DNA of 64,000 nt, taken from contig NC_015577.1 of NCBI RefSeq assembly GCF_000214355.1, positions 2,471,389-2,535,388 on the forward strand, in the 5' to 3' direction. Below, in pieces: positions 22,237 to 22,281 of the stretch (position 1 is its first letter; each line of letters begins with the position of its first letter). This DNA comes from Leadbettera azotonutricia ZAS-9 (GTDB lineage: Bacteria; Spirochaetota; Spirochaetia; Treponematales; Breznakiellaceae). The notes under the pieces are model-generated. The model worked only from the letters and a program-made list of their open reading frames with translations. It had not been told where the DNA came from and searched no databases. Position numbers and translations under genes: made by a program.

Positions 22237-22281
22237 GGGGGGGGGGGGGGGGGGGGGGGGGGGGGGGGGGGGGGGGGGGGG
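22237..22281 (-). repeat. 45-base homopolymeric G tract (poly-C on the coding strand), putative phase-variation switch
   Basis: The plus strand holds 45 consecutive G residues. Relative to the minus-strand lipoprotein operon the tract lies 81-125 bases upstream of the start codon, and about 42-86 bases upstream of the predicted transcription start. Tracts of this kind change length by slipped-strand mispairing. Treponemes are known to carry variable poly-G tracts upstream of some surface-protein genes. The exact length in an assembly is unreliable. Confidence 0.9.

Follow-up and report, generated by a model that had tools for sequence, protein, structure and literature searches.

The window, the 64,000-nucleotide stretch of DNA analysed here, comes from Leadbettera (formerly Treponema) azotonutricia ZAS-9, a termite hindgut isolate that is probably a termite-gut symbiont. 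It contains only one run of eight or more G or C residues. This run is 45 nt long and precedes two adjacent lipoprotein genes. The features of the locus are:

16590..19751, minus strand: lipoprotein 2 gene (1053 aa, lipobox FGGC, weak Big_2 match)
19754..22156, minus strand: lipoprotein 1 gene (800 aa, GTG start, lipobox FFGC, Ig-like/He_PIG and YDG domains)
22153..22314, minus strand: leader ORF MTRNSLYHIDL-P15-EKFSPFLVSPYNNSSITQNHSQLRRTL (53 codons, ATG at 22314, TGA stop)
22162..22168, minus strand: Shine-Dalgarno (SD) sequence AAGGAGG of the lipoprotein 1 gene
22201..22206, minus strand: TATAAT box between the tract and the gene, 30 nt from the tract
22213..22227, minus strand: 5' arm predicted by RNA folding to mask the lipoprotein 1 SD
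22237..22281, minus strand: homopolymer tract (45 G on the plus strand, 45 C on the strand that codes for the lipoproteins)
22319..22326, minus strand: SD-like sequence AAGGTAGG of the leader ORF
22387..22415, minus strand: candidate promoter TTGACT-17-TATTTT upstream of the tract, with TG before the -10 (9 of 12 positions)
22412..22819, minus strand: PIN-domain (VapC-like) gene, the upstream neighbour of the tract
22816-23058, minus strand: AbrB/MazE-like antitoxin gene preceding the PIN-domain gene

The two lipoprotein genes share the minus strand and are separated by 2 nt, and lipoprotein 2 is rich in GTFTMxxGEIxGN repeats. The PIN-domain and AbrB-type neighbours resemble a toxin-antitoxin pair. 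An earlier, sequence-only reading of this DNA had reported 45 consecutive G, a nearby TATAAT with a poor -35 and two large lipoprotein genes after the tract. All three are found: the G run is exactly at 22237-22281 of the plus strand, the TATAAT lies 30 nt away on the minus strand and the lipoproteins carry the lipoboxes FFGC and FGGC.

The genome, a single contig of 3,855,671 bases, has seven G/C runs of at least 9 nt (lengths 16, 9, 15, 17, 45, 13 and 17), fewer than the approximately 22 expected for independent, identically distributed bases over the whole genome. Under the same model, runs of at least 13 nt number six against 0.09 expected, and 7e-21 runs of 45 nt are expected. Common G/C runs are depleted in this genome, the few long ones are conspicuous and the C45 tract has the length beyond chance that characterizes slipped-strand contingency loci. 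An assembly or finishing artefact, which would have given a real tract the wrong length or created the tract altogether, is very unlikely. Long homopolymers are poorly read, and the matches of a G40 scan of genome contigs fall mostly at the contig ends of drafts, where they are judged to be artefacts. An N also adjoins the C15 tract of a second locus of the finished ZAS-9 sequence (L023; G000:C1 1163103), which suggests that such tracts are difficult to read or mixed in length. By contrast, the C45 tract is internal to a one-contig genome and, thus, is not the contig-end poly-G artefact typical of drafts; six more, shorter tracts occur in the genome, mostly in similar contexts, and internal tracts of C11-C23 occupy like positions in relatives. 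The exact length of 45 nt may be an assembly estimate. It is about twice that of the longest internal tract of the relatives (C23, L054), and a tract of 45 C would slip often, such that a population would be a mixture and switching too frequent for a stable switch.

The tract is enclosed by a leader ORF that begins with an SD-like sequence and an ATG, and its 45 C encode 15 prolines. At C45 the TGA of the leader overlaps the GTG of lipoprotein 1 (GTGA). The leader stops 69 nt short of the lipoprotein 1 gene at C43 or C46 and 58 nt short at C44 or C47, while C48 restores the overlap; the leader stop and gene start, thus, meet only when the number of C residues is divisible by three. The sequence-only reading had dismissed a reading-frame switch, a view that is not favoured given this position of the tract within a leader that has an SD and ATG and whose stop reaches the gene start only at multiples of three. 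An in-frame fusion of the leader to lipoprotein 1 was also considered and is ruled out, as the gene's frame is closed by a stop 14 codons ahead of the GTG; the leader ORF fuses with the lipoprotein at no tract length. When both flanks are dinucleotide-shuffled, an SD, an ATG and a coupled leader arise together in 0.67% of shuffles, or in 8% if the SD is not required. If only the downstream half is shuffled and the real upstream half is kept, 28% of leaders reach the gene, which is not unusual, and for the spacer alone (tract to gene) 68% of shuffle trials do equally well. The downstream half is, thus, ordinary under shuffling, and the strong part of the leader is its start signal, not the length of its open frame.

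In the predicted mRNA, the AAGGAGG of lipoprotein 1 pairs with bases about 10-24 past the tract. This SD is predicted to be 8% unpaired compared to a shuffle mean of 25%, and 3% of shuffles pair it to the same degree or more. The overall fold of the spacer is ordinary (z 0.22). No intrinsic terminator was found between the tract and the lipoprotein 1 gene at this locus, unlike at L021.

The other six G/C runs of at least 9 nt in the ZAS-9 genome (G000) define the loci L021-L024, L026 and L027. At L022, an ATG is followed by 13 codons, C9 and a lipoprotein signal peptide that is out of frame by one. At L027 (1493-1509; G000:C1 3205089), ATG-ATA-C17 precedes a response-regulator frame, also out of frame; the ATG overlaps the stop of a histidine-kinase-like gene, and 15 or 18 C would join the frames. 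Judged from sequence, L022 and L027 are plain frame switches. L027 may represent a phase-variable two-component regulator. L023 has an ATG leader and C15, after which one frame runs into a lipoprotein; at L022, L023 and L027, thus, an upstream ATG shares the gene's frame at some tract length. The C16 tract of L021 has a leader that shares homology with the L023 leader (LP-x-TVHEQ). The frame used there stays open up to 12 nt from the ATG of the lipoprotein and includes a hairpin resembling an intrinsic terminator. L026 has an ATG and C13, with a BspA-like lipoprotein 166 nt on, and its leader falls 75 nt short. The GC-rich L024, beside a primase-like gene, fits the pattern poorly. The leader segment CTGCCNNATACAGTACAYGAACA is repeated at L021, L023 and L030 (G000:C1 110502, 1163137 and 3334429); the first two copies lead to poly-C and a lipoprotein, and the third (L030) is without a tract.

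Five of the seven ZAS-9 tracts, all C-sense, either precede a lipoprotein gene or fall within its start. In the family sample, a lipobox signal peptide begins within 330 nt after 10 of 95 C-sense tracts, half of the ten being supplied by ZAS-9 itself, versus 0 of 81 G-sense tracts (Fisher p=0.002) and 0.9% of random positions. The tracts are placed non-randomly at surface-protein genes, as contingency loci are. An ATG in open frame occurs within 20 codons upstream of all seven ZAS-9 tracts compared to 44% of control positions taken from the same loci (p=0.003), and of 6/6 when the C45 locus is left out (p=0.007). An ATG with an SD-like site precedes five of the seven versus 8% of control positions (p=8e-5), or 4/6 without the C45 locus (p=6e-4). 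Among internal tracts of ZAS-9 and related genomes, the upstream ATG in open frame is found for 43/70 on the C strand and 19/70 on the G strand, and the ATG with SD for 15/70 (p=6e-4) and 3/70, respectively. Frames that stay open between tract and gene start are only weakly enriched (6/9 loci, p=0.047; p=0.065 without the C45 locus), with L026, L106 and L276 failing this test; these and the preceding p-values are guides, as the tests were chosen after the sequence was seen and the relatives come from few genomes. The flanks of the sampled C-strand tracts show TA before the tract in 23/70 and G after it in 49/70.

The survey of relatives includes 59 genomes: ZAS-9 and 58 others, of which 35 are of the same family and 23 of other families of the order. 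G runs of at least 12 nt are present in 30 of the 35 same-family relatives, with up to 142 per genome, and in 15 of the 23 from the other families, with at most seven per genome; some of these runs, those at contig ends, are likely artefacts. Two genomes (G011 and G023) have 142 and 55 poly-G tracts of at least 12 nt, some of which precede signal-peptide, AraC-like and ABC-binding-protein genes or fall within their starts. A homologous two-lipoprotein operon with the same gene order is found in another genus (G008; 43% over 233 aa, E 1e-26 for lipoprotein 1; 28%, E 1e-13 for lipoprotein 2). Here, C11 lies 164 nt ahead of the first lipoprotein with an ATG leader frame and a candidate promoter, TTGACA-17-CATACT, and one frame past the C11 runs into the first lipoprotein. 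In G011, two Ig-like lipoproteins that are part-homologous to lipoprotein 1 have C15 separating the start from the signal peptide, which is in frame in one case and out of frame in the other. No tract of at least 9 nt occurs in 15 of 20 stretches with domain-level similarity to lipoprotein 1; thus, the association is with particular loci and not with the domain family. A locus search of the genome-contig collection with lipoprotein 1 found no relative.

Alternatively, a former switch or spacer run may have been expanded by slippage into a hypermutable tract that now leaves expression unaffected, as its length far beyond the usual contingency range, a leader with no known conservation and the weakly significant openness of the downstream frame would allow. 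We regard this as unlikely, since tracts cluster ahead of lipoproteins in a single strand sense and other G runs are depleted, both of which point to selection acting on the whole set. Loss of MutS as the cause of tract expansion is not supported, with two MutS-domain genes in the genome.

The sequence-only reading had assigned the tract to promoter control: transcription would be driven by the TATAAT, and the tract, spanning roughly -42 to -86, would alter the contact of RNA polymerase or an activator. The perfect TATAAT is separated from the tract by 30 nt and has no good -35; the best candidates are TTAGTC with a 17-nt spacer and TAGTCC with a 16-nt spacer, the latter matching 3 of 6 positions. 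With TAGTCC it scores 9 of 12, a tie with the upstream TTGACT-17-TATTTT. The upstream candidate is not significant alone, as 19% of shuffles reach its score. The tract is not in a promoter spacer of the porA or tp0126 type: it lies between the two candidates, 30 nt before the TATAAT and 105 nt past the -10 of the upstream one, outside the -35/-10 spacer. When promoter-like sites are scanned identically at every compared locus, the best site lies upstream of the tract, with a score of 10 of 12 at L021, L063 and L132, 9 at L023, and 8 at L022 and L026. For L021, L022 and L023, 81-84 nt separate the end of the -10 from the tract; compared to shuffles, only the sites of L021, L063 and L132 stand out individually (at most 5% reach the score). 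With start sites upstream, the tract would be part of the mRNA.

Promoter tracts are known in Treponema pallidum (PMC7864442) and Bordetella pertussis (PMC1891110), and may occur among the relatives of ZAS-9: in two genera, a conserved C13 lies upstream of the same gene, which has a C39-peptidase-like start (L035, G028:C1 near 296443; L036, G015:C37 near 4935), and is flanked by TTGATT and TG(C/T)TAT at 17 nt. This tract, like the one of tp0126, could sit in a promoter spacer. Promoter control of the C45 locus is nonetheless improbable, as the other lipoprotein loci have their best promoter-like site upstream of the tract, the sister tracts come after an SD and ATG in frames expected to be transcribed, the TATAAT has a poor -35, the tract is outside the -35/-10 spacer and no activator site is known. 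The view that a slippage-prone tract is placed to control a surface-lipoprotein operon is supported. Promoter contact as the mechanism is not favoured, but the TATAAT, which ties with the upstream site here, leaves it plausible. A frame change of the short leader peptide is the more likely switch route.

The C45 tract is, thus, proposed to be a simple-repeat contingency locus that acts through its leader ORF, a reading to which we give slightly better than even odds (about 0.52). Transcription would start upstream of the tract, at the candidate promoter 22415-22387, and replication slippage would alter the C count. At lengths divisible by three (ON), ribosomes would cross the spacer, open the helix that masks the AAGGAGG and reinitiate at the GTG. 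At other lengths (OFF), ribosomes would leave just past the tract, within the first helix arm, the SD would stay masked and the untranslated C-rich RNA could load Rho. The leader would, thus, serve as a length-counting translational/transcriptional attenuator and not as a promoter spacer. Poly-C RNA is among the classical ligands of Rho, and translation of long CCC runs tends to stall when EF-P is absent; Rho and EF-P, which these steps would require, are both encoded in the genome. The predicted SD masking, the excess of ATG and SD signals ahead of the tracts, the apparent frame switches at sister tracts, the G008 operon and the lipoprotein-side bias of the tracts are consistent with this leader mechanism. 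Against it are the TATAAT between tract and gene, tied in score with the upstream site, the strong SD of lipoprotein 1, by which coupling may not be required, the weak enrichment of open frames, a leader with no known conservation and the excessive length of the tract. More tentatively, poly-C leader ORFs may be attenuators throughout the Breznakiellaceae, in which a heritable C count, modulo three, would switch sets of lipoproteins and poly-C would provide the entry site for Rho in the OFF state.

Most work on phase variation concerns pathogens. The coherent set of lipoprotein-associated poly-C tracts in a probable symbiont lineage, with tracts abundant across the family, suggests that surface variation matters in gut symbiosis as well. 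A literature search that covered few subscription papers, and in which absence is thus weak evidence of novelty, found no precedent for a separate leader ORF with a stop that reaches the gene start at only one class of tract lengths and no paper joining termite spirochetes to phase variation.

Known systems share parts of this arrangement. The C-stretches of Bordetella fim, like the ZAS-9 tract, are long and lie upstream of surface-protein genes; in the accessible text of that report they reach C19 and lie within a promoter of which the fim box is also part, and no leader ORF is described there, in contrast to the leader ORF of ZAS-9 (PMC1891110). The tprE/G/J, tprL and tp0126 genes of T. pallidum have promoter poly-G tracts of about 7-11 G, with the transcript start just downstream or the tract between the -35 and -10 (PMC7864442). 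These are likewise homopolymeric G:C tracts at surface-protein genes of a spirochete; by contrast, the candidate promoter of the ZAS-9 locus is upstream of the tract, which would be transcribed and has C on the coding strand.

Contingency loci with poly-G/C in the 5' coding region are found in Neisseria, Campylobacter and Helicobacter. These resemble the ZAS-9 locus in a homopolymer near the start codon, a surface-protein target and ON/OFF states set by length modulo three; they are the closest counterpart of the sister tracts, and L022 and L027 fit them directly. The C45 locus differs in having a separate leader ORF with no fusion in any frame, a far longer tract and a host of a gut-symbiont lineage. 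In Neisseria siaD, a poly-C frameshift is coupled to premature Rho termination, and in both cases untranslated RNA after the poly-C would be exposed to Rho depending on frame, although the siaD tract is within the structural gene and that of ZAS-9 is in the leader. In the erm-type leader-peptide attenuators, translating the leader unfolds a helix in which the downstream SD is hidden, as is proposed here; the signal there is an inducer, whereas here it would be a heritable tract length. If true, the leader-ORF mechanism joins slippage switching to attenuation, and it predicts modulo-three behaviour.
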